Part shown: piece after piece, positions 1 through 20,986 of the stretch
Layout of the letters: every line of letters begins with the position of its first letter
How positions within the stretch are numbered: the stretch's first letter is position 1
Assembly (NCBI GenBank): GCA_945874535.1
Contig: CAMCGZ010000001.1
Location: 154,471 to 218,470 of the forward strand
DNA: 64,000 bases
From: Bdellovibrio sp. ZAP7
Lineage (GTDB): Bacteria; Bdellovibrionota; UBA1018; CAIMNF01
Direction of reading: 5' to 3'
Position numbers and translations under genes: made by a program
Notes under the pieces: model-generated
What the model saw: only the letters and a program-made list of their open reading frames with translations
Database searches by the model: none
What the model was told of the DNA's origin: nothing

Positions 1-2824
1 CGCCACCGAGAACATTGCCGCCGCCTCGGATTTCGAGGTCGAGCGAGGCGATTTGAAAGCCGCTCCCCAGTTCGACAAAGCGCTGGAGAGCGTCGAGTCG
101 CTGTTTGGCCTCATCTGTGAGTGTGCCCTCTTCACGCACCAGCAAGTAGGCATGGGCCCGGCGATGACTCCTGCCCACCCTTCCGCGGATCTGGTACAAC
201 TGGGCGAGTCCGAGTTGATCGGCCCGGTCGATCAGGATGGTCCCCGCATTCGGAACGTCGATTCCGGACTCGATGATGGTCGTACAAACGAGGACTTGAG
301 CGTGTCCTCTGTAAAACTCGAGCATTCTCTCCTCGATCTCGGTTTCCGACATCTGACCATGGGCCACGATCACTTTGCAGGAGGGGATCAGTTTTTGGAT
401 TTCGTTGGCGTGGTGTTGGATGCTCTGGACTTTATTATGAAGGTAAAACACCTGACCGCCCCGGGCGAGTTCGGTCTCGATTGCCCCTTTCACCAGCTCG
501 GCCGACCAGGCCGAAACATGGGTTTGAATCGGTTGGCGGTTGGTCGGTGGCGATTGAATCACGCTGATGTCTTTCAGTCCGGAAAGAGCCATGTTCAGAG
601 TCCGCGGAATCGGGGTGGCGGTCAAGGTGAGCGTGTGGGTGTCGGCCTGAATGGCTTTGATCTTCTCTTTGTGTTCGACACCGAATCGGTGTTCTTCATC
701 AACAATGAGCAAACCGAGATTCGCCCATCCGACGTCCTTGGAAAGCAGCCGATGGGTTCCGATCAGAATGTCGATCTTGCCACCCTGTAAGTCTTTCAAA
801 AGTGAGTTTTGCACAGCCTTGGTTTTGAATCTTGAAATCGATTCGATCCGCACCGCAAAATCACGCATCCGGTTGCGGAAGGACTGTTCGTGTTGAAATG
901 CAAGCAGAGTGGTGGGTACCAGTACGGCGACCTGATAACCGTTTTGAACCGCCTGAAAAGCAGCGCGGATTGCCACTTCGGTTTTACCGAATCCCACGTC
1001 ACCGCAGACCAGGCGGTCGAGCAGCTTGGCGGACTCGAGATCGTGGAGGATGTCACGGACGGCACTCATCTGACCTTCGGTTTCCTGGAATTCGAACTTC
1101 TCGCAAAAGTCGAAATACTCGTCCGAGGGCGGTTCGAATTTCGGGCCCTTCAGAAGCGCGCGTTTGGCATAGATCTCGACAAGATTGATGGCGAGTTTCC
1201 TCGCAGATTCCCGGGCCTTCTGTTTTGCCCGGTCAAACTGACCACTCCCGAGCCGGTCGAGTGCGCCGTCGCTCCCCCCCGAGGCATGCCGCTGAATGTT
1301 GTTCAGCCGGTAAACCGGAAGGTACAATTTATCGCCCGAAGAATACTCGATCAGAAGGTATTCCCCGGATGGTTGCCCTGCAGATCTCAGTTCCTGCATT
1401 CCGAGGTAACGCCCGACGCCGTGAAGAGAGTGAACCACCAGGTCGCCCGGTGCGAGGTCTTCGAGTCGCTGAAATGCCAATGCGGGATTTTTCTCGAACT
1501 TGGGGTGTCGGACTTTGGTGGCAACCTTGCCGGTCGACTCACCCGGAAAAATGGATCGTTCGGAGAGAATCACGGTCTTTCTGATAGGCAGAACCCCGGA
1601 TTCCCCCGGGTCCGTCGTCAAGAAAAAGAGTCCGGGACGGGAGGTGGCGTCCTTCAGGTGGTGGCGGATCCGCTCCTGATGAGAGGGGCCACGGGAACCG
1701 ATCCAGACCGTGAAACCATCCTCAAGCCATTCGACAATCTCCCGTTCTTGCACCCGGGTCGATTCCAGCCGGTCGACAATCTCGGAGTCGGGCTCCATCG
1801 ATCGGTTCATCAGAGTCCCGATCTGTGAATCGACATCCGGATAAAGCAGATCGAATGACGGGGTGATCCAGTGGCGATCGGAGTAACGGTTCTCCTCGCT
1901 CTTCAGCCATTGGATATGACTCCTCATGGAACTTTCGAACCTGCCACGATCATGGAGGAAGACGGGAGTGCCGGGCGGGAGGTGTTCTGCGAGGTGGCCG
2001 GTGACTCCGTGCACGAAGGGAATCCAGGTCCGGGCATGATCTGGCAAGAACCCGCTCCGGATGTTCTCAAATACGGGGTCGCGAATTTTTCTCGAAATCT
2101 GATGGTGGTCACAGAACTCTTTGATGCGCTCCAACACCGGGGAGAGCTGTCTCCAAGGGAGTAGGACTTCTTCCGCCGGCCCGGCTTCGATGCGGGTCCG
2201 GCCCGTTCCATCGCCCCCCAGGGTCCTCTGCGTTTCGGGATGGAAAAACCGGATGCTCTCGGGAACGGTATCGAAAAACCCCACTCTGAGCGGGCGGTCA
2301 TATTCCGGCGGAAAGAAATCGAGAATTTCACCCCGGAATGCGAATTGCCCGGGCTCCTGTACCAAATCGGAAGGGACATAGCCGAGCTCCCTCATCCGAG
2401 CCCTGAGCTCATCGCGGGTCCCCGCGTCGGTGTCACATTCGAGCAACAGTGTCGCCCGCTCCCGAACCGAGTCGGGCAGGGTGGGTTGGAGCCAGGACGC
2501 CGCTGTTCCGATCAGGATGACTGTTCGATCCGAAGAATGGAGCAATGAGAGAGTCCGGAGTCTTGCTGTTTTCTGGGAAAGCGAGGGCGACACGGGAGAA
2601 AATGGAGCGTGTTCGGATGCGGTCCAGAGAGCGATCTCCACCCCGGGCCCGCCAGTGTCCGCCTCGGCAAAGCTCCTCAGGAGTTCGGCGAACTCATCCG
2701 CTTGCTCCTGTTCCGGAAACAAATGAACCCGGACCCGGGACGACTGCTCCCGGGCACGGAACCATGCGGTGGCGGCTCTTGCGAGAGGCGTTGATAAATT
2801 TATCTCGCTCGGACCGGCAGGCAT
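1..2824 (-). CDS. mfd: Transcription-repair coupling factor Mfd (C-terminus cut off by window edge)
   Basis: Mfd is a DNA translocase that removes RNA polymerase stalled at DNA lesions and recruits UvrA for excision repair. The reading frame is open from an ATG at 2824 to the window edge, about 941 residues of a family that is usually near 1150, so the last part of the helicase and the C-terminal domain lie outside. The helicase motifs are clear: Walker A in LVCGDVGFGKTE (Asp609 onward) and the DEAD-type box DEEHR at about residues 709-713, within LLIVDEEHRFGVEH. The N-terminal third carries the UvrB-homology region expected of Mfd. The start has a strong ribosome binding site (GAAGGAGAAGGGG) just upstream. 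The gene is divergent from the small membrane gene at 2866, leaving 41 bases for two start regions. Confidence 0.95.
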   Translation of the reverse strand, partial: MPAGPSEINLSTPLARAATAWFRAREQSSRVRVHLFPEQEQADEFAELLRSFAEADTGGPGVEIALWTASEHAPFSPVSPSLSQKTARLRTLSLLHSSDRTVILIGTAASWLQPTLPDSVRERATLLLECDTDAGTRDELRARMRELGYVPSDLVQEPGQFAFRGEILDFFPPEYDRPLRVGFFDTVPESIRFFHPETQRTLGGDGTGRTRIEAGPAEEVLLPWRQLSPVLERIKEFCDHHQISRKIRDPVFENIRSGFLPDHARTWIPFVHGVTGHLAEHLPPGTPVFLHDRGRFESSMRSHIQWLKSEENRYSDRHWITPSFDLLYPDVDSQIGTLMNRSMEPDSEIVDRLESTRVQEREIVEWLEDGFTVWIGSRGPSHQERIRHHLKDATSRPGLFFLTTDPGESGVLPIRKTVILSERSIFPGESTGKVATKVRHPKFEKNPALAFQRLEDLAPGDLVVHSLHGVGRYLGMQELRSAGQPSGEYLLIEYSSGDKLYLPVYRLNNIQRHASGGSDGALDRLGSGQFDRAKQKARESARKLAINLVEIYAKRALLKGPKFEPPSDEYFDFCEKFEFQETEGQMSAVRDILHDLESAKLLDRLVCGDVGFGKTEVAIRAAFQAVQNGYQVAVLVPTTLLAFQHEQSFRNRMRDFAVRIESISRFKTKAVQNSLLKDLQGGKIDILIGTHRLLSKDVGWANLGLLIVDEEHRFGVEHKEKIKAIQADTHTLTLTATPIPRTLNMALSGLKDISVIQSPPTNRQPIQTHVSAWSAELVKGAIETELARGGQVFYLHNKVQSIQHHANEIQKLIPSCKVIVAHGQMSETEIEERMLEFYRGHAQVLVCTTIIESGIDVPNAGTILIDRADQLGLAQLYQIRGRVGRSHRRAHAYLLVREEGTLTDEAKQRLDALQRFVELGSGFQIASLDLEIRGGGNVLGG

Positions 2825-2865: not shown

Positions 2866-3090
2866 ATGGATCCTAGGAAGATTTTACCCTTTGAAATCAA
2901 GACGACACAGTTGACCCAGGTCATTCTTTACCTGTGGATTCCCCTTTTGGTGGCGCTTCCCCTATTCATTTCAGGGGAGATCAGGATCATCCCGTATTTA
3001 ATCGCGATTCTGGTGATGATGGTAGTGTTTTTGTCATTCTTCCTTGCGACCCAGCACTATCTTAAAAAGGACTCGGATGACGAAGTTTAA
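2866..3090 (+). CDS. Small membrane protein of unknown function, first gene of the complex I-like cluster
   Basis: This 74-residue protein is not recognised. Residues about 18-38 and 42-62 form two hydrophobic stretches long enough to cross the membrane, and the C-terminus is highly charged (KKDSDDEV). It could occupy the place that NuoA takes in a normal nuo operon, but NuoA has three spans and no NuoA motif is visible. Its end overlaps the start of the NuoB-like gene by 14 bases, which implies translational coupling and a shared function with that cluster. It is divergent from mfd. Confidence 0.6.
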   Translation: MDPRKILPFEIKTTQLTQVILYLWIPLLVALPLFISGEIRIIPYLIAILVMMVVFLSFFLATQHYLKKDSDDEV

Positions 3091-3454
3091 GCCCGCTCTC
3101 AGATATGTGCGTGTGGGACTCACCTGTTGTGGCGATGACTGGATCCAGACAGAATCGAGCCGCTATGACCTCGAGCGCCTCGGGTGTGTCGCGTCGGAGC
3201 GCGCGGAGGATGCCAACCTCCTGGTCGTACAGGGTACGCTCAATAGCGCCTTGTTCGAAGAGGCCGTGGCTCACTTCGAGCGGATGAGGGTGCCGAAGTA
3301 TGTCATTGCGATCGGCACTTGTGCGTGCGGGGGGGGCTTGTTCCCCACTCCGGGTGACTCAAGGCTTCCGGTCAATATCTATGTGACCGGATGCCCGCCC
3401 CGACCCGAGGCGATCATGAACGGAATTCTCTCACTCCGGGAGGTTCAGGCGTGA
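3077..3454 (+). CDS. NuoB-like iron-sulphur subunit (paralogue of complex I subunit B / group 4 hydrogenase small subunit)
   Basis: A 125-residue protein of the NuoB / HyfI / EchC family, which binds one [4Fe-4S] cluster equivalent to N2 of complex I. All four expected ligands are present: the tandem pair Cys17-Cys18 in LTCCGDDW, Cys82 in IGTCACGGG and Cys106 in TGCPPRPE. The start is taken as the ATG at 3077, which overlaps the previous gene by 14 bases. The protein is shorter than the canonical NuoB at 9820 (166 residues). It overlaps the NuoD-like gene by four bases. Because its partner at 3451 lacks NiFe cysteines, an active hydrogenase is unlikely; it may instead be an electron-transfer or structural subunit of an unusual membrane complex. 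Confidence 0.85.
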   Translation: MTKFKPALRYVRVGLTCCGDDWIQTESSRYDLERLGCVASERAEDANLLVVQGTLNSALFEEAVAHFERMRVPKYVIAIGTCACGGGLFPTPGDSRLPVNIYVTGCPPRPEAIMNGILSLREVQA

Positions 3455-4458
3455 TCCAGGAAACCATCGAAATCGGACCGATTCATGAATGGCTGCCCGG
3501 GCCGATGAAGCTGAGCCTCGGTATGAGCGGTGACCGGATTGTCCGGGTGGACGCCCGTTTCGGGTATGCTTCCAGAGACATCGAGCGTCAAGCGATCGGT
3601 CAGCACCATCGGCGGGCCCAATTGACCGTGGGTCGTGTGGAGCCGGAGAGCGCGCTCATTCTGGATCGGGTTTTCAGCGAAGCGGTCGAGAAGATCTCGG
3701 GCATGGAGGCGGGGGAACGTGTCCGGTGGATACGTGATATCACCTCGAGTCTCTCTGAGTTGAACTTCCAGCTGAAGTACCTTGCCAATATGTCGAGACG
3801 CCTCGGAGTGAAAATCCTGTTTCATTCCATTCTGAAACACCGCGAATCCTTGCTCGATCTTCTCGAGCTTCTTTCGGGTTCGAGATACGGCTACTACTAT
3901 CTGATTCCCGGCGGAGCCCGCTATGACATCACCGAGGGGTTTCAGGAAAGACTGGACGCTTGGAGCAGGAATTTCGTGGAGGACTACCCCAGAATTGAAG
4001 CCCTGTTCCGTTGGACCCACGTGTTCCAGAACCGGATGAAAAATCTGGGCCAGATTCTGGATCGGGGCGAGTACGGATTCGTCAGTGAAGCGTCGATCGA
4101 GACCACGCGTTACGGATTGGTGAGTCACGTGGAGTCTCGCCTCATCTATTCGCTCGAGAACTGCAAGGCCATGGCAATCGAGTTGAGAGACCTCTTGAAC
4201 CTGCGTCCGTCGGGAGACCACCTTTCAGTTCCGGGGATTCGCGAGGGGAAGTTGTCGCACGAACGTGTGACGCTTCGTGGAGCGTGGGGGATCACTCTCG
4301 GTCTCGATTCCGCTGGCAAAGTGACCGCTCTTGAGTTGCGCTCGCCCTCTTCATCGATCGTGAGTGCGATCGGTCCCGCACTCGAGGGTGAATCACTTGA
4401 GGATCTGGCTGTGGTGCTTGAGAGTCTCTCGTTCTCGATACCGGAGATCGACCGATGA
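3451..4458 (+). CDS. NuoD-like subunit lacking quinone-site and NiFe residues
   Basis: A 335-residue protein that aligns over its N-terminus with NuoD and the large subunit of group 4 hydrogenases: GPIHEWLPGPMKLSL matches the GPxHPxxHGxxR segment and RFGYASRDIERQA matches the GYxHRGxEK segment. The second histidine of the first motif, which contacts quinone in complex I, is a proline here, and the tyrosine motif MDYL is replaced by VEPESAL. There is no CxxC pair at either end, so NiFe binding is excluded. The GTG start at 3451 shares GTGA with the stop of the NuoB-like gene. The next gene again overlaps by four bases. The protein probably forms a connecting module with its NuoB-like neighbour. 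Confidence 0.78.
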   Translation: MIQETIEIGPIHEWLPGPMKLSLGMSGDRIVRVDARFGYASRDIERQAIGQHHRRAQLTVGRVEPESALILDRVFSEAVEKISGMEAGERVRWIRDITSSLSELNFQLKYLANMSRRLGVKILFHSILKHRESLLDLLELLSGSRYGYYYLIPGGARYDITEGFQERLDAWSRNFVEDYPRIEALFRWTHVFQNRMKNLGQILDRGEYGFVSEASIETTRYGLVSHVESRLIYSLENCKAMAIELRDLLNLRPSGDHLSVPGIREGKLSHERVTLRGAWGITLGLDSAGKVTALELRSPSSSIVSAIGPALEGESLEDLAVVLESLSFSIPEIDR

Positions 4459-5264
4459 TTGAAGCATTGATGGTCCTGCTGTCGGGAGTCGCCTCCGTTT
4501 TTCCAGTATCGTTTCTGATGTTTTCCATCAGCGAGAGAATGATCGCCCGGCATGAGTCGCGCGTCGGCAAGCAGGTCGGATGGGCAGGATTCATCTGGCA
4601 AACCTGGGTCGATGCCCGCACCGAAATGGGAGCGCAAACTGACCGGGGTGTCTGGTTGTTGCATCTGTTCCAGTTGTCGATGGTTTTTTTGCTCGGAATC
4701 CGTGTCGAATACCTGATGTTCATCCATGTCGCCCTGATCGGATTCCTGCTTGCTTGGATGTCCCTCGGCACCAATCGGGTGGTCTCAAGAATCCAGGCTG
4801 ATGGACACCAGGTTCGTTTCGCCGTCGCCGGGGCAATCGCCCTTCTTTGTCTGTTTGTCTGTTTCACCTATTCCAAAACCACAGATATGAGCGGAGTGAT
4901 TTGGAGTCCAGTATTGCTCGGTTTTGTGATCCCTTTCCAGTTGTGCGGTATGATCCTATTCGGAGAACATCCGTTTCGGGGCATGGGCGAGCGAACCGGA
5001 TGGCTTCATTCGGCCAGGTTCTATGTGTGGTCCTTGATCACTGCCAGGCTTTTCCTAGGCGGTGGAGATTGGTTTTTTGACATCCACCTGAAGGCGGCTG
5101 CACTTTATCTCGGCTCCAGAATCTTCGCGATCTACTTTCCGGGCTTCCACCAGAAGGATCTTCTTCGGATTTCGATCATTTATCTTTTCCCGATCACGGG
5201 AGCGCTCTGGCTGATTGCGATGCTCTGGTATGCGGTGAGTGGCGTGGGAGGTTCGGGTGTTTAA
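4455..5264 (+). CDS. NuoH-like membrane subunit, divergent
   Basis: A 269-residue polytopic membrane protein with about seven or eight hydrophobic spans. Near the N-terminus ERMIARHESRVGKQVGW matches the family signature seen in the true NuoH at 15317 (ERRGSALMQNRLGPNRMG). Farther on, GEHPFRGMGERTGW lies where the normal NuoH has the acidic loop ETNRLPFDLPEGESE. Most acidic residues of that loop, which line the quinone pocket, are gone. The protein is about 90 residues shorter than the canonical one. It overlaps both the NuoD-like gene and the ferredoxin-like gene. Its likely role is the membrane anchor of the cluster's peripheral arm. The assignment rests on motif position and gene order. 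Confidence 0.72.
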   Translation: MIEALMVLLSGVASVFPVSFLMFSISERMIARHESRVGKQVGWAGFIWQTWVDARTEMGAQTDRGVWLLHLFQLSMVFLLGIRVEYLMFIHVALIGFLLAWMSLGTNRVVSRIQADGHQVRFAVAGAIALLCLFVCFTYSKTTDMSGVIWSPVLLGFVIPFQLCGMILFGEHPFRGMGERTGWLHSARFYVWSLITARLFLGGGDWFFDIHLKAAALYLGSRIFAIYFPGFHQKDLLRISIIYLFPITGALWLIAMLWYAVSGVGGSGV

Positions 5265-5652
5265 CAAGATCATCGGCCATTTTTTGAATCGAAATGAAAT
5301 GCGGAAGATCGACACCGAATTCTATCCCGACCCGGTTTCCTCGCGCGGGAAAGACGACTTTCCGGCACGGGCGCGGGGGCTTCTTTTCAATGAGATCGAA
5401 AAGTGCACCGGGTGCGGAGATTGTGCCAAGGTCTGCCCCTCCTCTTGTATCGAGGTCGAGGCGAGCATCAATGCCCGAAATAATCGACCCTGGGTTTCCC
5501 GATTCGAGATCGATTTTTCGAAGTGTGTGTTTTGCGGCCTGTGTGTAGAGGTTTGTGAGCCCAACTCGTTGGTCCAGACCAAGGAAGTTCAACCCGCGGT
5601 TTTCGATCCCAAAGACCTCAAGATGAGTTTCGGCAGGGGGGATCTGGGATGA
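5257..5652 (+). CDS. NuoI-like ferredoxin subunit, two [4Fe-4S] clusters
   Basis: A 131-residue protein with two complete CxxCxxCxxxC sets: Cys50, 53, 56 and 60 in CTGCGDCAKVCP, and Cys90, 93, 96 and 100 in CVFCGLCVEVCE. This is the NuoI / HyfH / EchF pattern, and it would carry electrons toward the NuoB-like cluster. The second motif ends in Glu rather than the usual Pro. The GTG at 5257 is chosen as start because GGGAGG stands just before it and the codon overlaps the stop of the NuoH-like gene; an earlier GTG at 5239 is possible. The last four bases overlap the next gene. Redox function looks intact even though its neighbours are degenerate. Confidence 0.85.
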   Translation: MFNKIIGHFLNRNEMRKIDTEFYPDPVSSRGKDDFPARARGLLFNEIEKCTGCGDCAKVCPSSCIEVEASINARNNRPWVSRFEIDFSKCVFCGLCVEVCEPNSLVQTKEVQPAVFDPKDLKMSFGRGDLG

Positions 5653-5999
5653 GGGTTTTCGATCTGGTCTTCCTCCTGTCGGTTTCGGGCTTCCTTGCCA
5701 CCCGCTCACCCTTTTCGGGAGTGGTGGTCCTGGTTCTGGGCTTGTTGATCCGGATTCAGCTGTTCAGGATGCGGCTCTTGCTCGGGGGGGGCTCAGAGAG
5801 TGCTCCGGCCGGCAGGCGTGTCCGCGCGCTGATCCTGGCTCTCGGCTTGTCTGCCACCCTTCTGCCCTTGGTGCAGGAATCCGCGGGTCCGAGCCCGGTC
5901 GAAATCGAATACAGCCACTACTTGCCCGTGGTGATTCTGATTTCTTTGCTCTCTGCTGTGATGATGGCGGGTCTTGCCGTAGAAAAGAGGAAGCGATGA
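5649..5999 (+). CDS. Small membrane protein in the NuoJ position
   Basis: A 116-residue protein with about three hydrophobic segments and a basic end (VEKRKR). The N-terminal stretch FLATRSPFSGVVVLVLGLL resembles the first span of NuoJ (compare FKKNPVSSAFALVLVFF in the NuoJ at 16852), but the rest is too divergent to assign by eye. The best argument is position: it sits between the NuoI-like and NuoK-like genes exactly as nuoJ does downstream. ATGA overlaps link it to both neighbours. It may be a truncated NuoJ or an unrelated small subunit. Confidence 0.6.
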   Translation: MRVFDLVFLLSVSGFLATRSPFSGVVVLVLGLLIRIQLFRMRLLLGGGSESAPAGRRVRALILALGLSATLLPLVQESAGPSPVEIEYSHYLPVVILISLLSAVMMAGLAVEKRKR

Positions 6000-6238
6000 T
6001 CTCGGCCGTTTTTCTGGCGCTACTGGTGTTTTCGCTCTACACGCTCTTCACCTCATCGGACGTGCTCGAGTTTTCCGGGGCGATGTTGAGAGTGGCGCTT
6101 GCCCTTCTGGGGGTGGTCGCATCCCGCGAAACTTCGATTCCGATGCTTCCCGGTGCGGTGATGCTTTTCGCAGTTATAGCGATCGCACTTTTGGCGATTT
6201 CGAGAGGGGAGGTTCAGCTCGAAAATGATGAACCTTGA
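5996..6238 (+). CDS. Small membrane protein in the NuoK position
   Basis: An 80-residue protein with three hydrophobic spans and an acidic tail (LENDEP). NuoK and its MrpC/HyfE relatives are three-span proteins of about 100 residues with buried glutamates; here the only acidic residues near the membrane are Asp20 and Glu23, next to the second span. It lies directly after the NuoJ-like gene, as nuoK does in the canonical operon, and overlaps neighbours on both sides. The NuoK assignment is inferred from length, topology and order. Confidence 0.58.
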   Translation: MISAVFLALLVFSLYTLFTSSDVLEFSGAMLRVALALLGVVASRETSIPMLPGAVMLFAVIAIALLAISRGEVQLENDEP

Positions 6239-7067
6239 ACTCAGTCAGCCTGATCAGACAACCATCTTGTTTTTCATCTTCAGTGCCGTTGGCTTGATTC
6301 GGGAACGTCAAGCGCTCCCGTTTCTGATGGTGCTTCTCGGCTCTTTGTTGCACGGGCCGATGGTCGCCGCGCTGGTCGCCGGCCTTCTCATTTGGCATCG
6401 GATCGACAGAAAGGTCCGGGTCTGGGTCCGCCTGAAGGATTTTGTCGGTATTTTTCTGATCATGGGAGGGGCGATTTCCCCCGAGCCACTCGGGGAGTTT
6501 TTCACTTTCATCGGGGTTTTGCTGGTGTCGCTGAGTTTCGGTCGCGGGTACCTGGGCATCCTGCCAGCCCTGTTACTGTTCCGACAGTACTATCCCCAGC
6601 CCGAAAGGCCTGAGATCGCACTCGTGGCGGCAGGAATCTATTGGATTGCTGCTGAATCTTTCAGGTGGTTCAAGTCCGAGCAAGAGGAGCGGATTCTCAC
6701 CGCTCTGGAAGTGGCCTGCGCCGGGGTGATTCTTTCCGGTTTTTCAGGACAGTTCGAAAAATGGGCGGAAAACAATGTGGTGATCGCTCTCGGGTCCACT
6801 CTTCTGTTTGTCACGGCGGCGCTTTTCGCATGGACCAAATGGCGGCTCGAAGGCTTCCGTAGAAGCCTCCTGGCCTTCCGCACGAATGGACTTCGCGCCC
6901 TGACTTTCGGTGCCCGGCTGATCGATAGCCGGAATTCCTGGGGCGGGGATGAGCCCGCATACACCGTTCCCACAACCGGTTCGGCCATGGATCGCATTTT
7001 TTATCTGTTCATCGGCGCCCTTGCTTTCTTCGGGTTGTATCTTCTGGCCATGAAAGGGGGCGTCTGA
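6225..7067 (+). CDS. Polytopic membrane protein in the NuoL position, about half normal length
   Basis: A 280-residue protein with about eight hydrophobic segments. Canonical NuoL, at 17703, has 605 residues. None of the antiporter signatures (the span-5 glutamate in a GWEGVG-type motif, or the span-7/8 lysines) is visible. The C-terminal part has an amphipathic stretch (residues about 215-240) followed by a final span ending in MKGGV, reminiscent of the NuoL tail FMKGVV. Position after the NuoK-like gene suggests a shortened NuoL derivative, but sequence similarity alone would not carry that claim. The start overlaps the previous gene by 14 bases; ATG 6228 is an equally possible start. Confidence 0.58.
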   Translation: MMNLELSQPDQTTILFFIFSAVGLIRERQALPFLMVLLGSLLHGPMVAALVAGLLIWHRIDRKVRVWVRLKDFVGIFLIMGGAISPEPLGEFFTFIGVLLVSLSFGRGYLGILPALLLFRQYYPQPERPEIALVAAGIYWIAAESFRWFKSEQEERILTALEVACAGVILSGFSGQFEKWAENNVVIALGSTLLFVTAALFAWTKWRLEGFRRSLLAFRTNGLRALTFGARLIDSRNSWGGDEPAYTVPTTGSAMDRIFYLFIGALAFFGLYLLAMKGGV

Positions 7068-7070
7068 GTC

Positions 7071-8054
7071 ATGCTTGAGTTCAGTCTTCCATCAGCGCTG
7101 GTCGCCCTGTCCTGGTTGCCCTGTCTACCACCGGCCAGTTGGCTTTCGGTTCCCTTTGCAGCCGCGATCTTCTTTTCCAAGTCGGTTCCGGTCAGTTTGC
7201 TGTTTCTCTTGACCCTTCAAGTGATCGGATTTCTCCAGTCCACGCGTGGCTCGAGGCGTGCAGACCATCCCTTGGTCCAGAAGCACCACTTCATTTCGGT
7301 GGCGGGGATTTTTCTTGCGATCTTCGGAGCCTCACTCGGAGATCATCCTCAAGCGAAAATCCTCATTTTCGGAGGTCTGATTCTAACCATTCCCACCGGC
7401 GCGCATTTGTTCTTTTTCAGTCGCTTCTATGAACGGCAGACTCTTGCATCATTCCTCGGGTCAGTGATCATTCCGGCTCTTTCCGGTATCGAGATCCTTT
7501 TAAAAATCAGAGGCGAAATGAAGGCCGAAAGCGGCCAGCTTTGGGATGTGGGACTGTCCGTTGTGGGTTTGTTCACCTACATTTACGGGAGTTTGATGGC
7601 GGTTTTGCGACTCAGAATGAAGTCTTCGATCATTCACCTCGCTCTTGCGCAAATCGGTCTCGCCCTTTTCATACTGGTTATCGATCACGAAACCCTCGGC
7701 AGGACCACGCTCTGGGCATTGTCGGTCGCGGCAATCGGAGGGGCGGCTCTACTTTCATTGGGTGATCAGATGGGAGAGCGCTTCGGGGCTTTTTCGAGGG
7801 TTGCGTTCGTCGCACTACCCGGAATGGCGGGATTCACCGCCTACTTTTATTCGATGAAAATGGCGATCTCCATGAATCCTGTCTGGATCGCCGCACTCCT
7901 GGCTGGCTATCTGCTCCAGGTGATCACTCTGGTGGCCATCCCGGGGTACGGGTTCTCGAGCCCCGAGCGGATCACGACGATCCGGTTCTGGATGGTGGTT
8001 TTGGTTCAAGTTGCAGCCGGTGTCGGATTCTTCCTCCTCGGAGGTGTCAAGTGA
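7071..8054 (+). CDS. Antiporter-like membrane protein in the NuoM position, truncated
   Basis: A 327-residue protein with about nine or ten hydrophobic spans. The segment VLRLRMKSSIIHLALAQIGL resembles the span-8 region of NuoM and NuoN, where DLKRLIAYSSISHLG is typical, so this is probably a shortened Mrp-antiporter-family protein. The lysine of that segment is kept, but the span-5 glutamate motif and the HxWLP-type region are not visible. Canonical NuoM, at 19522, has 487 residues. It starts four bases after the preceding gene and shares GTGA with the next. A non-pumping structural role is likely. Confidence 0.62.
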   Translation: MLEFSLPSALVALSWLPCLPPASWLSVPFAAAIFFSKSVPVSLLFLLTLQVIGFLQSTRGSRRADHPLVQKHHFISVAGIFLAIFGASLGDHPQAKILIFGGLILTIPTGAHLFFFSRFYERQTLASFLGSVIIPALSGIEILLKIRGEMKAESGQLWDVGLSVVGLFTYIYGSLMAVLRLRMKSSIIHLALAQIGLALFILVIDHETLGRTTLWALSVAAIGGAALLSLGDQMGERFGAFSRVAFVALPGMAGFTAYFYSMKMAISMNPVWIAALLAGYLLQVITLVAIPGYGFSSPERITTIRFWMVVLVQVAAGVGFFLLGGVK

Positions 8055-9415
8055 CGATGTTGAACTGGCTGCCGGAACTCGCCCTTCTGGGGATGTTGTT
8101 TGTCACCCTTGTTTTGATCAACTTCAGGGTGTTGACAGTTCGTTCGATCGCGCCTGTGGCAGCAATCGCCTCTTCGGTGGTGCTGGTCTACTTTTCCTTG
8201 CGAACCGATCTCGCCTATTTCGAATCTCCGCTCCAAGTCCTCCATTCTGACTCACTGTCGTATTTCGGAAGATTGCTTTCGCTGGTGATGCTCTCGGTGT
8301 TTTCGATGGGGTTTTACTTCCACGGTTCACTCAGCGTGAGAGACAAGCAACTCACCACCCTGTTCACCCTGTTTCTTTCGGCCTTTGTTTCGCTTCTCCT
8401 CCAGGCGAATCATTTGGTGTTGTTTCTCGGGTCCGCGGTCGGAATCTACTTCTGTTCTACCAGTCTGATTCTTGTGGAGTCCGGCAAAGATCAAGCATGG
8501 GTGCGCCTCATCCGTCAAAGGAGCATGATCCTGGGTAGCTGGATTGCGGTGTTATCTCTCTTGATCGTCCTTTCGAGTTTCTTGTCGGGCTCGTTATTTC
8601 TGGGTGACTGGATCAACGGATTGGATTCTTATTCGGGTTCCGAGGTCGGGATCTGGCTCCCCGCCATTCTGATTCTCCTCGGCTCGGTGATCTTGCTCGA
8701 GGCGATCCCCCATCCCGGCAGGGCCCCGGTGGGTGTCGGGGTTCTCTATTTCGGTATGCATCTGATCGTTCAGGTGTTCTGGCTCAGGGTCGGGGTTCCT
8801 TTCTTCAGTAAGTCTTCTTTTCTGGCCAAACAACAGGCACAACTCCTGATTGCCCTGATGTTCGGGGCCTTCACGCTCCGGTACGCCTATCAGGCAGTAC
8901 GGGCGAGAGAACACCATCGGTGGTTCAGTGCGGCACTCCCGGTCCTGCTTGGACTCGGCTTCTTTTTGTGTCTCCTACCGGCCGATAAGATCTTGCCCGC
9001 ATTTTTCGCCATCTCCCTTTCACTCCTTCTGACCATCGCACTCTCGTCTCACGCTTTCCTCGACGAGAACTACCGTAAGAAAGGCGTCGTCACCGGAGCT
9101 TTGATTGCGCTGATGGGCGTTCCCCCCCTGGTTCTGGGAGACCAGATTTATCGACTCATCCACGACATCGTCACTGGAGGAAATGGGTTGGCAGGCATCC
9201 TGATGATCGTTTCCTGGTTCGCCCTGGTTCTTGCGGTCATCCGAATGATGGGTAAGGTACTCTTGGCAAGAAACGGCGCGAAAGAACTTCGCAAGATCCA
9301 GCCCGGAGAGGCGTTCTTCATCGGGCTTTATCTTCTCTGTGTCATCGGTTTGACACTCTTGCGCCCGAGCCTGTTCTCCCTATTAAAAGAGCATCCTCTC
9401 CTGAATTTGTGGTAA
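8051..9415 (+). CDS. NuoN-like antiporter-family protein lacking the pump glutamate and lysine
   Basis: A 454-residue protein with about twelve or more spans. It aligns with the NuoN at 20987: the region LFLGSAVGIYFCS matches LFIALEVMSLPAY, and LVESGKDQAWVRLIRQRSM matches the GFRRNDSRSNEAAIKYF segment. The span-5 glutamate that is essential for pumping in complex I (Glu134 of the NuoN here) is replaced by Ala129, and the FLFKVAAAPFHFW lysine motif is absent. The start is the GTG at 8051 that overlaps the previous stop; ATG 8057 is an alternative. It is the last gene of the cluster, 38 bases before nuoA. A structural, non-translocating membrane subunit is the best reading. Confidence 0.7.
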   Translation: MTMLNWLPELALLGMLFVTLVLINFRVLTVRSIAPVAAIASSVVLVYFSLRTDLAYFESPLQVLHSDSLSYFGRLLSLVMLSVFSMGFYFHGSLSVRDKQLTTLFTLFLSAFVSLLLQANHLVLFLGSAVGIYFCSTSLILVESGKDQAWVRLIRQRSMILGSWIAVLSLLIVLSSFLSGSLFLGDWINGLDSYSGSEVGIWLPAILILLGSVILLEAIPHPGRAPVGVGVLYFGMHLIVQVFWLRVGVPFFSKSSFLAKQQAQLLIALMFGAFTLRYAYQAVRAREHHRWFSAALPVLLGLGFFLCLLPADKILPAFFAISLSLLLTIALSSHAFLDENYRKKGVVTGALIALMGVPPLVLGDQIYRLIHDIVTGGNGLAGILMIVSWFALVLAVIRMMGKVLLARNGAKELRKIQPGEAFFIGLYLLCVIGLTLLRPSLFSLLKEHPLLNLW

Positions 9416-9453: not shown

Positions 9454-9816
9454 ATGGAATACCTTCCTGTACTGGTCATGATGGCCGCAGGGGTGTGCAT
9501 CGGCGGAGCCGTCCTCCTCATCACAACCTGGCTTGGGCCGAAGTTGCCCAACAAAACAAAAGATTCACCGATCGAGTGCGGTGTCGGTGACTCCGGACCG
9601 GCAAAAAAACATCGTGTCTCTGTGCGATTCTATCTCGTGGCCATCCTCTTTCTTCTGTTCGACATCGAAACGGTGTTCTTCTATCCGTGGGCGGTCGTTT
9701 ACAAACGCTTTTTGACCACGGGTGAATTCATTCTCATTGAAATGATGGTTTTTGTTTTCATACTTCTCGTCGGATACATCTACGTGATCCGTCGTGGTGC
9801 ATTGGAGTGGGAGTAA
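9454..9816 (+). CDS. nuoA: NADH-quinone oxidoreductase subunit A
   Basis: NuoA is a three-span membrane subunit of complex I next to the quinone cavity. This 120-residue protein has the family signature loop SPIECGVGDSG followed by VSVRFYLVAILFLLFDIETVF, whose acidic residues are conserved in NuoA/ND3. It has normal length and a good ribosome binding site (AAGGAAAGGG) 7 bases before the ATG. It opens the complete nuoA-N set, and nuoB follows after three bases. Because only 38 bases separate it from the complex I-like cluster, both may share one transcript. Confidence 0.96.
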   Translation: MEYLPVLVMMAAGVCIGGAVLLITTWLGPKLPNKTKDSPIECGVGDSGPAKKHRVSVRFYLVAILFLLFDIETVFFYPWAVVYKRFLTTGEFILIEMMVFVFILLVGYIYVIRRGALEWE

Positions 9817-9819
9817 ATC

Positions 9820-10320
9820 ATGAGCAAGGACGGGTCTTCCGATTTTTTCACGACCAAACTGGATGACATGGTCAACTGGGCCAGGAAACACTCTCTGTTC
9901 CCTCTTCCGTTCGGAACCAGTTGTTGCGGGATTGAGCTGATGTCGACCCTGGCCTCGGGTTACGACATGGCCCGCTTCGGAGCCGAGGTGGTCCGGTTTT
10001 CTCCAAGGCAGAGCGATCTCCTCATTGTCGCCGGTATCGTCAATCTCAAGATGGCGCCGGTTCTCCGGAATATCTATGACCAGATGGCCGACCCGAAGTG
10101 GGTGATTTCGATGGGTGCTTGTGCCTCATCCGGCGGGATCTTCAATGTCTACAGCGTGACTCAGGGAATCGACACCGTTCTTCCGGTGGACGTGTATGTT
10201 CCGGGTTGTCCTCCTGCCCCGGAGGGGCTTCTGAACGCACTATTGCGACTCAAAGAGATGATCGCAGCGGGTGAAACCCACTCCCAGCGACGGGAGCGGG
10301 CCCTGAGAGGAGAAGTGTGA
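9820..10320 (+). CDS. nuoB: NADH-quinone oxidoreductase subunit B
   Basis: NuoB carries cluster N2, the last electron carrier before quinone in complex I. The four ligands are visible: adjacent cysteines in [10 protein letters not shown], one in [10 protein letters not shown] and one in PGCPPAPE. Length (166 residues) is normal. Its stop overlaps the nuoC start. Compared with the shorter NuoB-like protein at 3077 it retains the N-terminal helix and the arginine-rich tail. Confidence 0.97.
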
Positions 10321-10880
10321 TGGACATCAACACGCCTGTAAAAACCATCTACGGCGGACATTACGACAAGTATCTCCCGGAGTGGACGATGGTGGTCGAG
10401 GCCCTGCAATCCGAGTTCGGTGATTTCATCGAAGAAATCTTGATGCCTAGAATTGCGGCGACGGATGTTCCCATCATCCAGATCAGGAAGTCCGGAATGA
10501 TGGCGGTGCTCTCCCGTCTCAAAGAGGGTCTGGGCTTCTCTTTCCTGACAGACTACACGGCAACGGACGAAGAATCGGAGCCGAGGTTCCGACTCGTTCT
10601 TCAGCTGATGAATCCCACCACCAAGGCCCGAATGAGGGTGAAGATCAGACTCTCCGAGCAGGAGACCTCACCCACGCTGATCCCCCTTTGGGAGGGGGCG
10701 AATTGGGCTGAGCGCGAAATTTACGACATGTTCGGGATCCGTTTCGAGGGTCACCCCGACCTCCGGAGAATTCTGATGGACATGCGCTGGGAGGGGCACC
10801 CTCTCCGTAAAGATTACCCTCTCAGGGGCTATCAGGTATTCCTGACCCCGGAGCCCCTTGATCCGGAGTTGCTGAAATGA
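10320..10880 (+). CDS. nuoC: NADH-quinone oxidoreductase subunit C
   Basis: NuoC is a peripheral-arm subunit that braces NuoD. The protein has 186 residues and carries the family signature region EREIYDMFGIRFEGHPDLRR, followed by GHPLRKDYPLRGY. It is separate from nuoD here, not fused as in enterobacteria. The ATG at 10320 is preferred because GAGAGGAGAAG lies 7 bases upstream; a GTG at 10317 is also in frame. The end overlaps nuoD by four bases. Confidence 0.96.
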   Translation: MDINTPVKTIYGGHYDKYLPEWTMVVEALQSEFGDFIEEILMPRIAATDVPIIQIRKSGMMAVLSRLKEGLGFSFLTDYTATDEESEPRFRLVLQLMNPTTKARMRVKIRLSEQETSPTLIPLWEGANWAEREIYDMFGIRFEGHPDLRRILMDMRWEGHPLRKDYPLRGYQVFLTPEPLDPELLK

Positions 10881-12157
10881 GTGATTCAAATCCGAAAAAT
10901 TTCAAGACCGATCTCCCCCTTGACGTCGCCCGTTGGGGCATTCCGTCGACCTACGATGTCTCGGTGAAACGTGACACTGACGATATTTTCGAGGACTCGA
11001 AAGTTCTCGTGAACATCGGACCGACTCACCCGGCGATGCACGGAGCATTCCGTTGCATGGCTCGGTTGAACGGCGAAATCATCGAAAAATCATACTGCGA
11101 GTTCGGATATACCCATCGTGCGAAGGAAAAGCTCGGCGAAAACCGGACCTATCACCAGTTCGTCGTTTATACCGATCGTCTGAACTACTGTTCCGCCCTG
11201 ATCAACAACGTCACTTATGCCATGGCGGTGGAGCGACTGATGGGGATCGAAGTGCCGGAACGCGCGGTTTGGATCCGGATGATGTGTGCCGAGCTGGCCC
11301 GGGTGATCGACCACCTCATTTGTGTCGGTATCAACGCGGTCGATCTCGGAGCATTCTCCTTTTTCCTTTACGGTTATCATCAACGCGAGAAAGCCTACAC
11401 GCTGATCGAGAAGCTGTGCGGAGCCCGCTTGACCACCTCTTACACCCGGATCGGAGGCCTCATGGCCGATGCTCCGGAGGGTTGGGAGAAAGAGGTCAAG
11501 GAATGGGTGAAAGAAACCCGCGCTGTTGTCGATGAAATGGACCGGCTCCTCACCGAGAACCGGATCTGGCTCAAGCGGACCAAGGGTGTTGCGATCATGA
11601 ATCGCGAAGACTGCCTCAAGTACAGCTTCACGGGCCCGAACGCCCGTGCAGCAGGGGTCGACATCGACCTCCGTCGCGATCAGCCTTGCATGTTTTATGA
11701 TCAGGTCGATTTCGACGTTCCAGTCGCGCAAACCGGTGACGTGTTCGACCGCTATTACGTCCGCCTCGAGGAGGTGCGCCAGTCCCTGAACATCCTCACC
11801 CAGTGTGCGGATCGTATCAAGCGAGGACCGATCTGGGCTGACGACAAGAGAACCCGCATTCCCGAGAAGGACCAGGTTTACAACACGATGGAGGGTCTCA
11901 TCCATCACTTCAAATTCTTCATGAACGGATTCAACGTTCCGGCAGGAGAGGCGTATACGTCCTTTGAGGCCGCCAATGGAGAACTTGGATTCTACATTGT
12001 CAGCAAAGGCGGCCCTGCTGCGCACCGGATGCGGATTCGCGGGCCTTCCTTCTGGCACTATCAGGGGCTCGACCCCATGATTCGCGGCGAATACATTGCG
12101 GATCTGGTGGCGGCTCTCGGAAGCATCAATGTCATTGCAGGGGAGCTCGATCGCTGA
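10877..12157 (+). CDS. nuoD: NADH-quinone oxidoreductase subunit D
   Basis: NuoD forms the quinone-reduction site with NuoB and NuoH. This 426-residue protein shows the diagnostic GPTHPAMHGAFR, with both histidines, then YTHRAKEKLGE and the tyrosine segment DRLNYCSALINN. The C-terminus keeps RIRGPSFWHYQGLDPMIRG and ends in GELDR, as usual. This intact set of quinone-site residues is what the NuoD-like protein at 3451 has lost. It overlaps nuoC by four bases and nuoE by one. Confidence 0.97.
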   Translation: MSDSNPKNFKTDLPLDVARWGIPSTYDVSVKRDTDDIFEDSKVLVNIGPTHPAMHGAFRCMARLNGEIIEKSYCEFGYTHRAKEKLGENRTYHQFVVYTDRLNYCSALINNVTYAMAVERLMGIEVPERAVWIRMMCAELARVIDHLICVGINAVDLGAFSFFLYGYHQREKAYTLIEKLCGARLTTSYTRIGGLMADAPEGWEKEVKEWVKETRAVVDEMDRLLTENRIWLKRTKGVAIMNREDCLKYSFTGPNARAAGVDIDLRRDQPCMFYDQVDFDVPVAQTGDVFDRYYVRLEEVRQSLNILTQCADRIKRGPIWADDKRTRIPEKDQVYNTMEGLIHHFKFFMNGFNVPAGEAYTSFEAANGELGFYIVSKGGPAAHRMRIRGPSFWHYQGLDPMIRGEYIADLVAALGSINVIAGELDR

Positions 12158-12639
12158 TGGAAAAGCAGCTTTCTCAAAAGTTTTATGAAGCCATGAAGGA
12201 CCTCGAGCCGAGGTATCCCAACAAAAAGGCGCTGATTCTGCCGGCCTTGCATCAGGCTCAGGCGGAGTGCGGCTGGCTTCCGCCGGAAGTTCTTGCCGAA
12301 GTGGCGGCTTACATCGGTGTCCATGAGGCGCAAATTCGCGAGGTTGCCAGCTTTTACACCATGTACAACCTGAAACCGGTGGGAAAAAACCATCTCCGGA
12401 TCTGTACCAATGTGGCCTGTTGCCTGAGGGGTGCGGACGAGCTGATGAGTTATGCCGAGCGCAAGCTCGGTATTGCCTGCGGTGAGACGACCCCGGACGG
12501 GATGTTCACTCTTTCGGAAGAGGAGTGTCTGGGGGCTTGCACCACCGCCCCCGTGATGATGGCGAACGACGACTACGTCGAGAACCTGGACATCAACGGC
12601 CTGAATGATTGGATTGAGAGGGCTAAAAATGAGCGCTGA
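12157..12639 (+). CDS. nuoE: NADH-quinone oxidoreductase subunit E
   Basis: NuoE belongs to the NADH-oxidising tip of complex I and holds the [2Fe-2S] cluster N1a. In this 160-residue protein the four ligands appear as CTNVAC, with Cys-x4-Cys spacing, and EECLGAC farther on. Length is normal. The ATG overlaps the nuoD stop (TGATG), and the end overlaps nuoF by 11 bases. Confidence 0.96.
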   Translation: MEKQLSQKFYEAMKDLEPRYPNKKALILPALHQAQAECGWLPPEVLAEVAAYIGVHEAQIREVASFYTMYNLKPVGKNHLRICTNVACCLRGADELMSYAERKLGIACGETTPDGMFTLSEEECLGACTTAPVMMANDDYVENLDINGLNDWIERAKNER

Positions 12640-13909
12640 GCAAAACACACTGTTCATCCAGCACTTCTGGAAAGACTCGAACCGGACTCTCGAATACTAC
12701 CTGAAAAACATGAACGGATACGAGGCGGCGAAAAAGGTATTCGCCGGAATGACTCCGGACCAGGTGATCGATGAGGTCAAAAAGGCGAACATTCGTGGAC
12801 GCGGAGGCGCCGGATTTCCAATGGGGATGAAGTGGAGCTTCATTCCTAAAAATTCCGATAAACCCAAATATCTGGTTTGCAACGCCGATGAATCCGAGCC
12901 GGGCACCTGCAAGGACCGCCAGATCATGCGCTATACACCGCACGTCCTGATCGAGGGGTTGCTCATCGGGTCTTTCGCCATCGGATGTCATCATGCGTAC
13001 GTATACATCCGGGGCGAGTATGTCAGGGAAGCCGAGTTGCTGAAGGCGGCGATCGACGAAGCGCGCGCGGCCGGCTATCTCGGAAAGAACATCTTCGGAT
13101 CCGGCTACGATCTGGAAATCACGGTCCACCGTGGCGCCGGTGCATACATTTGCGGAGAGGAAACGGGCCTTCTGAACTCTTTGGAGGGTAAACGGGGAGA
13201 GCCCCGCGTGAAGCCCCCTTTTCCGGCTGTATCGGGTGCATTCTCCTGCCCGACCGCGGTGAATAATGTCGAATCGATCGCCAATGTCCCTCACATCATC
13301 CGGATGGGTGGCGAGGCATTCGCCGGCCTGGGCAAGATCGACAAGTCGGGAGGAACCCGGCTCATTTCACTTTCCGGCCACGTACAAAAGCCCGGTGTCT
13401 ACGAAATGCAGGCGGGCTCCATGACTCTGCGCCAAATCATCGATCAATTCGGAGGCGGATTATTGAATGGCCGTCGCCTCAAGGCCGTTATTCCCGGGGG
13501 ATCCTCCTCTCCGGTCCTGACTGCGGATGAGATCGACGTGGTTTACGATGTCGAACCGCTCATGAAAATCGGAACCATGATGGGATCTGCCGCAATCATG
13601 GTGATCAACGAGGATACGGACATGGTGAAGCTCCTCCTCAGGATCACAAAGTTCTATGCCCATGAATCCTGCGGACAGTGCACCCCTTGTCGCGAAGGTT
13701 GTCACTGGATGGAGTCCATCCTCCACAAGATTCTTCATGGCGAGGCGAGACCCGCGGACATCGATCTTCTGGTCGATGTGGCAGGGAATATCGGTGGAAA
13801 GACCTTGTGTGCTCTAGGAGATGCAGCCGCGATGCCTGTCCAGAGTTTCCTGAAAAAGTTCCGGCCTGAATTCGAGGCCTATGTAAAGGGGCTAAAGCGT
13901 CATGCCTAA
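12629..13909 (+). CDS. nuoF: NADH-quinone oxidoreductase subunit F
   Basis: NuoF binds NADH, FMN and a [4Fe-4S] cluster (N3) and is the electron entry point of complex I. The 426-residue protein shows the glycine-rich nucleotide segment RGRGGAGFPMGMKW, the FMN-associated GAGAYICGEETGLLNSLEG, and the cluster ligands in ESCGQCTPCREG with a fourth cysteine in TLCALGD. The ATG at 12629 is chosen over an in-frame codon at 12605 because it gives the normal N-terminus and is preceded by GAGAGG. It overlaps nuoG by eight bases. Confidence 0.97.
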   Translation: MSAEQNTLFIQHFWKDSNRTLEYYLKNMNGYEAAKKVFAGMTPDQVIDEVKKANIRGRGGAGFPMGMKWSFIPKNSDKPKYLVCNADESEPGTCKDRQIMRYTPHVLIEGLLIGSFAIGCHHAYVYIRGEYVREAELLKAAIDEARAAGYLGKNIFGSGYDLEITVHRGAGAYICGEETGLLNSLEGKRGEPRVKPPFPAVSGAFSCPTAVNNVESIANVPHIIRMGGEAFAGLGKIDKSGGTRLISLSGHVQKPGVYEMQAGSMTLRQIIDQFGGGLLNGRRLKAVIPGGSSSPVLTADEIDVVYDVEPLMKIGTMMGSAAIMVINEDTDMVKLLLRITKFYAHESCGQCTPCREGCHWMESILHKILHGEARPADIDLLVDVAGNIGGKTLCALGDAAAMPVQSFLKKFRPEFEAYVKGLKRHA

Positions 13910-15320: not shown

Positions 15321-16408
15321 GCTCCATAGAAACCACACTGATGTTCGTGAAGATCGCCATCGTTCTGATGGGTCTTCTCCTGACTGTGCCGATCATGCTT
15401 TTTGTCGAGAGGCGGGGATCGGCACTCATGCAGAATCGTCTCGGCCCGAACCGTATGGGTCCATTCGGTTTGTTCCAGGCCGCATGCGACGTGGTGAAGT
15501 TCATCTTCAAGGAAGATCGGGCTCCCGGGCACGTGAATCGCTTTTACTACACGATCGCTCCCTGGATCGCAGTGATCCCGGCTTTCATGACCTTCGCAGT
15601 AATTCCCTTTGCCGGGTCTCTGCAAATGGATGGGTTCGAGGCAAAATTCCTCATCGCCAATCTCGATGTCGGTGTCCTGTACTGTTTCAGTATCGCCTCA
15701 CTCGGAGTCTACGGGATCATCATGGCGGGTTGGGCCTCCAATAACAAGTATTCGCTCCTTGGGAGTCTCAGGAGTTCGGCTCAAATGATCAGTTATGAGC
15801 TCACTTTGGGACTATCCATTGTTGGCCTCATGATGGTGTTCCAATCGGTCAATTTAGGAGAGATTGCCGCAGCCCAAGGAGAAACGCTGATTCAACTCGG
15901 GCCGATTGCGGTTCCCAAGTGGGGGGTGTTCATTCAGCCTCTCGGCTTCGTGCTTTTCCTGGTATCCATGTTCGCAGAAACAAACAGGCTTCCGTTCGAC
16001 CTTCCCGAGGGAGAGTCTGAGCTGATCGCCGGATACCATCTAGAATACGGATCGATGCGTTTCGCCCTGTTCATGATGGCGGAATTCGTCAACATGGCGG
16101 TCGCTTCCGGACTCATCACCACACTCTTTTTCGGTGGTTGGCAGCTTCTTCCCGGCATGGGATTCCTTGCGACCCAAGTCGAGCAGCTCGGAATCCTGCC
16201 GGCTGGTGGCTGGGTTCAGGTTCTGTTCCAGGGGCTTTCCTTCGTCATGAAGGTGGCATTCTTCATGTGGTTCTTCGTATGGGTTCGCTGGACGCTTCCG
16301 CGGTTTCGCTTCGACCAGCTCATGAACCTGGGGTGGAAGGTCCTGTTTCCGTTGGGTCTGGTGAATGTTCTCGTCACAGGCCTGCTCATCTACAAGGGAG
16401 TGCTCTGA
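15317..16408 (+). CDS. nuoH: NADH-quinone oxidoreductase subunit H
   Basis: NuoH is the membrane subunit that joins the peripheral arm to the pumping arm and forms the quinone channel. The 363-residue protein has about eight spans, the N-terminal signature QNRLGPNRMGPFGLFQAACD and the acidic loop AETNRLPFDLPEGESELIAG. Length is normal. It overlaps nuoG by four bases and nuoI follows without a gap. It is the reference against which the divergent NuoH-like protein at 4455 was judged. Confidence 0.97.
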   Translation: MSSIETTLMFVKIAIVLMGLLLTVPIMLFVERRGSALMQNRLGPNRMGPFGLFQAACDVVKFIFKEDRAPGHVNRFYYTIAPWIAVIPAFMTFAVIPFAGSLQMDGFEAKFLIANLDVGVLYCFSIASLGVYGIIMAGWASNNKYSLLGSLRSSAQMISYELTLGLSIVGLMMVFQSVNLGEIAAAQGETLIQLGPIAVPKWGVFIQPLGFVLFLVSMFAETNRLPFDLPEGESELIAGYHLEYGSMRFALFMMAEFVNMAVASGLITTLFFGGWQLLPGMGFLATQVEQLGILPAGGWVQVLFQGLSFVMKVAFFMWFFVWVRWTLPRFRFDQLMNLGWKVLFPLGLVNVLVTGLLIYKGVL

Positions 16409-17699: not shown

Positions 17700-17702
17700 C
17701 CC

Positions 17703-19520: not shown

Positions 19521-19521
19521 T

Positions 19522-20985: not shown

Positions 20986-20986
20986 T

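Follow-up and report, generated by a model that had tools for sequence, protein, structure and literature searches.

A shortened complex I-like gene block upstream of the nuo operon of Bdellovibrio sp. ZAP7 as a member of a class-specific complex I paralogue without NuoE, NuoF and NuoG

The ten-gene block between mfd and nuoA

A stretch of 64,000 nucleotides of Bdellovibrio sp. ZAP7 (GTDB lineage Bacteria; Bdellovibrionota; UBA1018; CAIMNF01; assembly GCA_945874535.1, contig CAMCGZ010000001.1, positions 154,471 to 218,470 of the forward strand) was analyzed, which is called the window in the following and to which all coordinates refer. The subject is a block of complex I-like genes directly upstream of the nuo operon. 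It was shown to be a shortened member of a complex I paralogue that is specific for the class, is mostly full-length, and is of the 11-subunit type, i.e., has no NuoE, NuoF and NuoG. The paralogue is called A2-N2 and its proteins A2, B2 and so on; the Fe-S cluster that shares its name with the last protein is always written as cluster N2. The block consists of ten intact open reading frames (ORFs) on the plus strand, which overlap or abut one another between mfd and nuoA. An earlier note, made from the sequence of this DNA alone, had described an overlapping, collinear cluster of nine genes that ends 38 bases before nuoA. The order and the gap were confirmed, and the number of genes was raised to ten, including A2 with 74 amino acids (aa). 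As A2 occupies the position of NuoA, the genes without a counterpart are C, E, F and G; the earlier note had also counted A among them. The starts of B2 and D2 at 3077 and 3451 were preferred after comparison with relatives. The features are as follows:

2..2824, minus strand: divergent gene, named mfd as in the earlier note, start at 2824, conserved left neighbour, extends beyond the window edge
2866..3090, plus strand: A2, 74 aa, two hydrophobic stretches/helices, at the NuoA position (assigned in the genus by its position; the proteins of the order match NuoA in profile comparison)
3077..3454, plus strand: B2, NuoB-like, four cysteines of cluster N2 kept (Pfam PF01058, 1.8e-17)
3451..4458, plus strand: D2, NuoD-like, with Pro for His38, Pro for Tyr87 and Arg for Asp139 (Pfam PF00346, 6.9e-18)
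4455..5264, plus strand: H2, NuoH-like membrane anchor of reduced length, 269 aa (hhalign 99% to the H2 of the order, itself 100% to NuoH)
5239..5652, plus strand: I2, NuoI-like, eight cluster cysteines and the paralogue-typical stretch YPDPxSSxxxDDxP (Fer4 Pfam matches, cysteine alignment)
5649..5999, plus strand: J2, shortened membrane protein at the NuoJ position (position; weak hhalign match, 20%, E 0.0011)
5996..6238, plus strand: K2, membrane protein of 80 aa at the NuoK position (in the genus by position only)
6225..7067, plus strand: L2, 280 aa, at the NuoL position (assigned in the genus by its position; order-level L2, mostly about 645 aa, matches NuoL at 98%)
7071..8054, plus strand: M2, 327 aa, antiporter-like remnant (PF00361, 7.6e-4, below the cut-off; hhalign 95% to order-level M2)
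8051..9415, plus strand: N2, 454 aa, antiporter-like (hhalign 96% to order-level N2), stops 38 bases upstream of nuoA
9454..22453, plus strand: complete canonical nuoA-N operon

Profile searches with each protein, which the earlier note had proposed, gave graded results. B2, D2 and I2 were clearly recognized by Pfam, and D2 covers the full profile length of the 49-kDa family. M2 stayed just below the cut-off of Proton_antipo_M (19.2 bits, cut-off 21.5), and no convincing Pfam family was found for H, J, K, L and N of the window. The homology of H, M and N to Nuo subunits could be deduced because order-level profiles bridge the genus and the canonical proteins: the genus profiles matched those of the order with 99%, 95% and 96%, respectively (genus M also matched L, 94%), and each of the three order-level profiles matched its canonical subunit with 100%. 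At the order level A, H, J, K, L, M and N all match the canonical subunit of their own letter (97-100%; A 97, K 97, L 98), and M and N also match L and one another. For the window's genus, the assignment of J remained weak, and A, K and L were placed by position; profiles of the intermediate species G012 (L065) gave no link between genus and order for A, J, K and L (G, C and L numbers denote genomes, contigs and loci). The block belongs to the complex I superfamily, as it encodes homologues of NuoB, NuoD, NuoH and NuoI together with antiporter-like subunits in the order of the nuo genes.

Distribution, length reduction and origin

A D-like gene was present in ten of the 12 genomes of the window's genus and absent from G004 and G007. 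With the D2 profile, 53 of 58 genomes of the class were positive on our reading of the matches, i.e., 49 with at least 339 bits, G055, G012 (two pieces), and G037 and G050, where fragments lie at contig edges. D2 was counted as missing in G004, G007, G041, G052 and G056, of which G041 is 82% and G052 56% complete. The I2 profile was searched against 368 genomes of the phylum, with up to nine candidates scored per genome; among the matches listed, at least 50 places in the class reached at least 181 bits, and all others had at most 115 bits. One D match each was seen in G190, G196 and G203. A pattern scan for close relatives yielded four loci (55-90% identical), and plasmid and phage collections contained nothing but matches of less than 60% identity.

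For the analysis of gene order, 40 stretches of up to 20 kb were fetched from 39 relatives. The stretches of the order mostly carry full-length A, B, C, D, H, I, J, K, L, M and N without E, F and G, followed by the canonical nuoA-N. A match to mfd adjoins the paralogous cluster in 36 of the 40 stretches. In L037 the contig ends within D2, L056 is a separate, third cluster, and in L054 and L055 (genomes G004 and G007) the cluster is gone and mfd lies beside nuoA. N2 was found directly upstream of nuoA in all 32 measured loci, the median distance being 37 bases (6 to 264 in 31 loci; the single negative value is due to a long start). The survey of the mfd-nuoA interval, suggested in the earlier note, thus revealed that the order is conserved in relatives. 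In G004 and G007 the mfd match is at most 260 bases away from nuoA, and the fetched canonical genes (A to K and A to H) are present; the two congeners have therefore lost the whole block and keep the nuo operon intact as far as it was fetched.

The comparison also revealed a gradient of reduction (lengths are ORF lengths, and some ORFs have longer starts). For L2, most members of the order have 624-662 aa; the values for G029, G016, G005 and G012 are 544, 529, 466 and 414, respectively, and most of the window's genus has 280-299 aa. M2 decreases from about 500 via 353 (G012) to mostly 327-344 aa, N2 from about 490 via 389 (G012) to mostly 421-454 aa, and H2 from about 360 to 255-311 aa. C2 was not recognized in G016, G012, G026 and the window's genus, and it was probably lost more than once. 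Two deep-branching members of the class, L051 (5483-11468) and L052 (6512-12672), have four large genes at antiporter-like positions in the paralogous cluster, not three.

Next, the origin of the block was analyzed. The earlier note had proposed an ancient block duplication as its source. A tree of D proteins (76 sequences) placed every one of the 37 D2 rows on one side of a branch (support 100/99), and the D protein of the neighbouring operon grouped with the 14-subunit D proteins of other classes of the phylum; its B and I proteins likewise group with the 14-subunit nuo of other classes. D2 was again on one side in a joined tree of B, D and I (35 rows, 672 columns; 100/100). A constraint that held D2 together with the neighbour was rejected in the approximately unbiased (AU) test (log-likelihood 174 lower, p-AU 5.7e-51), and with it a tandem duplication of the nuo operon, with the caveat that the trees are unrooted, that the D2 branches are long, and that the AU test shares the long-branch pull of the model. 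Judged by these trees, the block and the nuo operon next to it belong to different lineages. Because of its gene content and its separateness in the trees, we infer that it probably descends from an ancient enzyme of the 11-subunit type.

The 11-subunit complex I, e.g., of Desulfitobacterium, resembles A2-N2 in gene set and order except for C, has no N-module, and has the chain N6a, N6b, N2 (PMC11238625, which also discusses these enzymes and their ferredoxin donors). In contrast to it, A2-N2 is devoid of the quinone-site residues and most coupling residues, lies beside a full nuo operon, and is not linked to 2-oxoacid:ferredoxin oxidoreductase (POR). The canonical 14-subunit complex I (NuoA-N) has subunits homologous and collinear to those of the block, but the block is a separate lineage with lost residues, and neither NuoE, NuoF nor NuoG (nor, in the genus, NuoC) was found inside it.

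The ratio of non-synonymous to synonymous substitution rates (dN/dS) was low for close species. Between the window and L076 it was 0.018-0.052 for the ten block genes and 0.006-0.063 for nuoA-L, and between the window and L057 it was 0.027-0.114 where computable. As dS is high, the ratios are only rough. The low values disfavour a pseudogene status in the window's genus.

Fe-S, quinone-site and coupling residues

Residues were counted in paralogue rows only, and L056 was set aside. In addition to the positions with a citation below, the following were considered: Asp139 of D; Asp79/Glu81 of A; the H-loop Glu; the J sites; E144, K229, H254, H338 and K342 of L; K265 and the His positions of M; and E133, K217 and K247 of N. 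The numbering of His38 and Tyr87 of the quinone site follows PMC7684303, and that of the coupling positions E36/E72 of K, E144/K234/E407 of M, K399/D400 of L and K395 of N follows PMC9271201.

The Fe-S ligands of a functional complex I were found nearly throughout. All four cysteines of cluster N2 are present in 36 of 37 B2 rows, and all eight cysteines of N6a and N6b in 37 of 38 I2 rows; the exception lies behind an in-frame TAG in G014. The YPDPxSSxxxDDxP stretch of I2 is less regular in L051 and L052.

The quinone site of a functional complex I was not found. In D2, His38 is kept in none of 38 rows (one is gapped there), Asp139 in none of 38, and Tyr87 in three of 38, i.e., in the deep-branching L051, L052 and L053; the D2 of the window has none of the three. 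The commonest replacements are Pro for His38 and Pro for Tyr87, and the alignment is gapless in the order and genus rows shown. Of 59 control D rows (from canonical, 11-subunit and B-C-D-I clusters and from Rhizobium, Nonomuraea, Halobaculum and Bacteroides), 57 are complete at the four positions checked; of the other two, one carries Glu in place of Asp139 and the second is truncated.

Overall, the coupling residues were also not retained. Glu36 and Glu72 of K2 are kept in none of 32 rows (at the order level Gln is found at 20/25 and 16/25), and Asp79/Glu81 of A2 in none of 34. In the 33 rows of L2, the numbers of retained residues were E144 0, K229 1, H254 3, H338 0, K342 0, K399 1 and D400 2, and no row has more than two of the seven pump positions. 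For M2 (33 rows) they were E144 0, K234 0, one His 21, K265 1, the two further His 2 and 1, and E407 1, and 32 of the 33 rows have at most two of the seven. In N2 (33 rows), E133 is kept once and K217 never. L051 and L052, with their four antiporter-like genes each, keep almost no coupling residues. A crude count of charged residues in predicted transmembrane (TM) cores at the order level gave lower values for A, H and K.

None of the checked residues is missing from the canonical rows of A, B, D, I, K, L and M (36, 35, 35, 32, 27, 8 and 4 rows); for N there was one canonical row only. The 11-subunit controls L078, L087, L088 and L100 keep nearly all residues, with the exceptions of Gly at E72 of K (L078, L087) and Leu at K234 of M (L088, L100). 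The view of the earlier note that pump and active-site residues are absent from the block was supported for most of these residues, also in the relatives. In the canonical NuoN of the window (20987-22453), the presumed K247 position is occupied by Ala (one canonical row aligned).

D2 was also compared with solved structures of related enzymes. The best chain was that of 2fug/4hea (Nqo4, 320 bits), followed by chain L of 6u8y, presumably of MBS (246 bits), and the MBH chain of 6cfw (232 bits); D2 thus scores closer to Nqo4 than to MBS or MBH. The large subunit of group 4 [NiFe] hydrogenases has four Cys for the NiFe site. The D2 of the window has one, as has the family consensus, and together with the scores this led to the rejection of a group 4 hydrogenase or MBH. 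No Fpo-type input subunit (FpoF/F420) was found inside the block. MBS is the nearest precedent for a family member without His38 and Tyr87: according to PMC7684303, it also has no equivalents of these Nqo4 residues, its three [4Fe-4S] clusters are fed without an N-module, it reduces sulfane sulfur, and it keeps its pumps. MBS and MBH are working proton pumps, whereas the pump residues of the block are mostly lost, and the proximal cluster of MBS has three ligating Cys, whereas B2 has four that align with the ligands of cluster N2. For these reasons, and because of the scores, membership in MBS was rejected.

The D2 data bear on the idea that quinone still accepts the electrons in a pocket of altered geometry, so that A2-N2 would be an uncoupled quinone reductase and a low-yield bypass of complex I. 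The full-length match to the 49-kDa family, with 2fug/4hea as best chain, and the first His of the motif, which is kept in many D2 rows, are in favour of it. The loss of His38 and Asp139 in all 38 rows and of Tyr87 in 35 of them, and the precedent of MBS, which without His38 and Tyr87 reduces sulfane sulfur instead (PMC7684303), make it distinctly unlikely.

In other classes of the Bdellovibrionota, NuoB-C-D-I clusters without recognized adjoining H and J-N were observed (L081, 7610-10414; L082, 1553-4302; L077, L079, L080 (C-D-I) and L096). They resemble the block in having peripheral-arm subunits without E, F and G, but they keep His38, Tyr87 and Asp139 where covered, and their branches are separate from D2. 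In searches of the open-licence literature, no listed paper was recognized as a description of A2-N2; the main text of PMC12361115 on complex I mining contains no word starting with Bdellovibrio, and no "nuo" was found in the accessible part of PMC13200544 on an undescribed class of the Bdellovibrionota.

Proposed function, redox partners and rival readings

The best reading overall, to which the sequences give about an even chance, is that A2-N2 is a membrane-bound, non-pumping Fe-S electron-transfer complex that is shrinking. Electrons would enter at I2 via N6a and N6b, would be passed on to cluster N2 in B2, and would leave in a rebuilt cavity of D2 and H2. Because this cavity is without the set of His38, Asp139 and Tyr87, the acceptor may not be quinone, or it may be reduced without coupled chemistry. 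The membrane arm would now be mainly an anchor and, because coupling was lost, would have been shortened (L from about 645 to 280 aa, M from about 500 to 327, H from about 360 to 269) and deleted in some species. The earlier note had spoken of a new membrane redox complex. This is in agreement with a complex I-like block that has intact frames and low dN/dS in the window, but the scope was too narrow, because the block of the window is the reduced extreme of a complex that occurs throughout the class and is mostly full-length.

Possible redox partners were searched in the 58 genomes of the class. POR (PF01558) was found in 14 of them, 12 of which carry D2, and was not found in 44, including that of the window, and in 41 of the 53 D2 genomes. 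As POR is missing from most genomes of the class, ferredoxin derived from it was rejected as a general donor, and POR is an unlikely donor for A2-N2. Rnf/Nqr was detected in one genome and ETF-QO in none of the 58, and no partner emerged from either. The one module for electron input in the vicinity is NuoEFG, encoded by the downstream operon on the same strand. A third D match (292-317 bits) is present in ten genomes of the class, and in eight of these POR lies within 5 kb (G014:C110, G025:C31, G027:C7, G031:C46, G032:C147, G034:C2, G038:C134, G039:C9). Annotation gave an 11-subunit set for five of the third clusters (L056, L087-L090), and in two of them the residues were checked. These third D matches near POR are a lead to a ferredoxin-fed 11-subunit complex I.

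In view of the proximity to the nuo operon, A2-N2 might also act without own redox chemistry, by binding to complex I either in a hetero-dimer or as a regulator. Joint expression of the block and nuo is likely because they are on the same strand, the gap is short (median 37 bases), and no terminator-like site is listed in the 38-base gap of the window; in addition, the active-site and most pump residues are gone. This pseudo-enzyme partnership is nevertheless unlikely, because, with a single exception in each case, the B2 and I2 rows have all cluster cysteines while other functional residues disappear, and because G004 and G007 have lost the block. Since they keep nuo, as far as it was fetched, the block is not obligatory for complex I. 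The earlier note had considered an assembly platform or partner; an obligate role of this kind is disfavoured.

Several observations weigh against the reading as a non-pumping electron-transfer complex. A first group concerns the loss of coupling. At the K234 position of M2, Arg is found in 24 of 25 order-level rows, one His of M2 is kept in 21 of 33 rows, and K395 of N2 in 18 of 33. L053 (G014) keeps several coupling residues of H and M as well as E133 of N. At the order level, the TM-core charge per TM showed no clear fall in comparison with the canonical proteins (L 0.55 v 0.56, M 0.35 v 0.40, N 0.58 v 0.43; canonical rows L 8, M 4, N 1), and in the window's genus it was 0.69 v 0.71 for H and rose to 0.87 for L. 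As the charge is not clearly reduced in L, M and N, nor in H of the genus, an ion path via other residues is conceivable. Redox-driven ion transport might thus persist, in line with the full-length membrane arm of most fetched members, the charged residues in the predicted TM cores of L, M and N, and the Arg, Lys or His at some pump positions. It is, however, very unlikely in view of the losses at Glu36/Glu72 of K, in A, in the H-loop, and at the L and M positions, and of the extreme shortening in the window's genus with low dN/dS.

A second group concerns function as such. In comparisons of the window with the distant L059 and L061, dN/dS of J, L, M and N reached 0.2-0.6 where computable, with saturated dS, and dS was near saturation in general. 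The D2 gene of G017 (L037) and the I2 gene of G014 (L053) each contain a single in-frame TAG in an otherwise readable gene, and the D2 match of G051 is split in two and contains stops; these interruptions may be mutations or sequence errors. The structures predicted for L2 and N2 with AlphaFold were unusable (pLDDT 42), and the searches for POR, Rnf/Nqr and ETF-QO yielded neither donor nor acceptor. The block might be regarded as a decaying relic without present function, to which the progressive shortening, the missing C in several lineages, the loss of the whole block in two congeners, the interrupted genes, and the identity of only 26-39% for J2-N2 (window versus L059 or L061) would fit. 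The same comparison gave 69-77% for B2 and I2, and the low dN/dS of all ten genes among close species and the nearly invariant cysteines of B2 and I2 make a relic very unlikely.

Two further proteins of the window were noted. Right after nuoN, a protein of 1229 aa is encoded (22460-26149) that has long Glu-Pro and Lys-Pro repeats and, after these, a C-terminal part rich in repeats, and at 33696-38303 a Cys-rich, Pro/Thr-rich protein of 1535 aa with a hydrophobic N-terminus.

A more far-reaching, rather unlikely picture is that throughout the class one gene block encodes two machines of the complex I type, i.e., the normal pump and an ancient, redox-active, uncoupled sister, which would be fed by the shared NuoEFG or by another donor and would pass electrons from cluster N2 to a non-quinone acceptor; the window's genus would then represent the reduction to a small membrane-anchored relay. 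How electron transfer at cluster N2 drives proton pumping in the distant membrane arm of complex I is a long-standing question. In A2-N2, evolution has preserved the Fe-S ligands and removed quinone-site and most coupling residues. This is seen stepwise and in numerous species, and the canonical complexes of the same genomes serve as controls. The graded loss of residues and length across species therefore offers a natural mutational series for the uncoupling of complex I, and A2-N2 is a candidate for a complex I-derived enzyme with a role other than energy-coupled quinone reduction.

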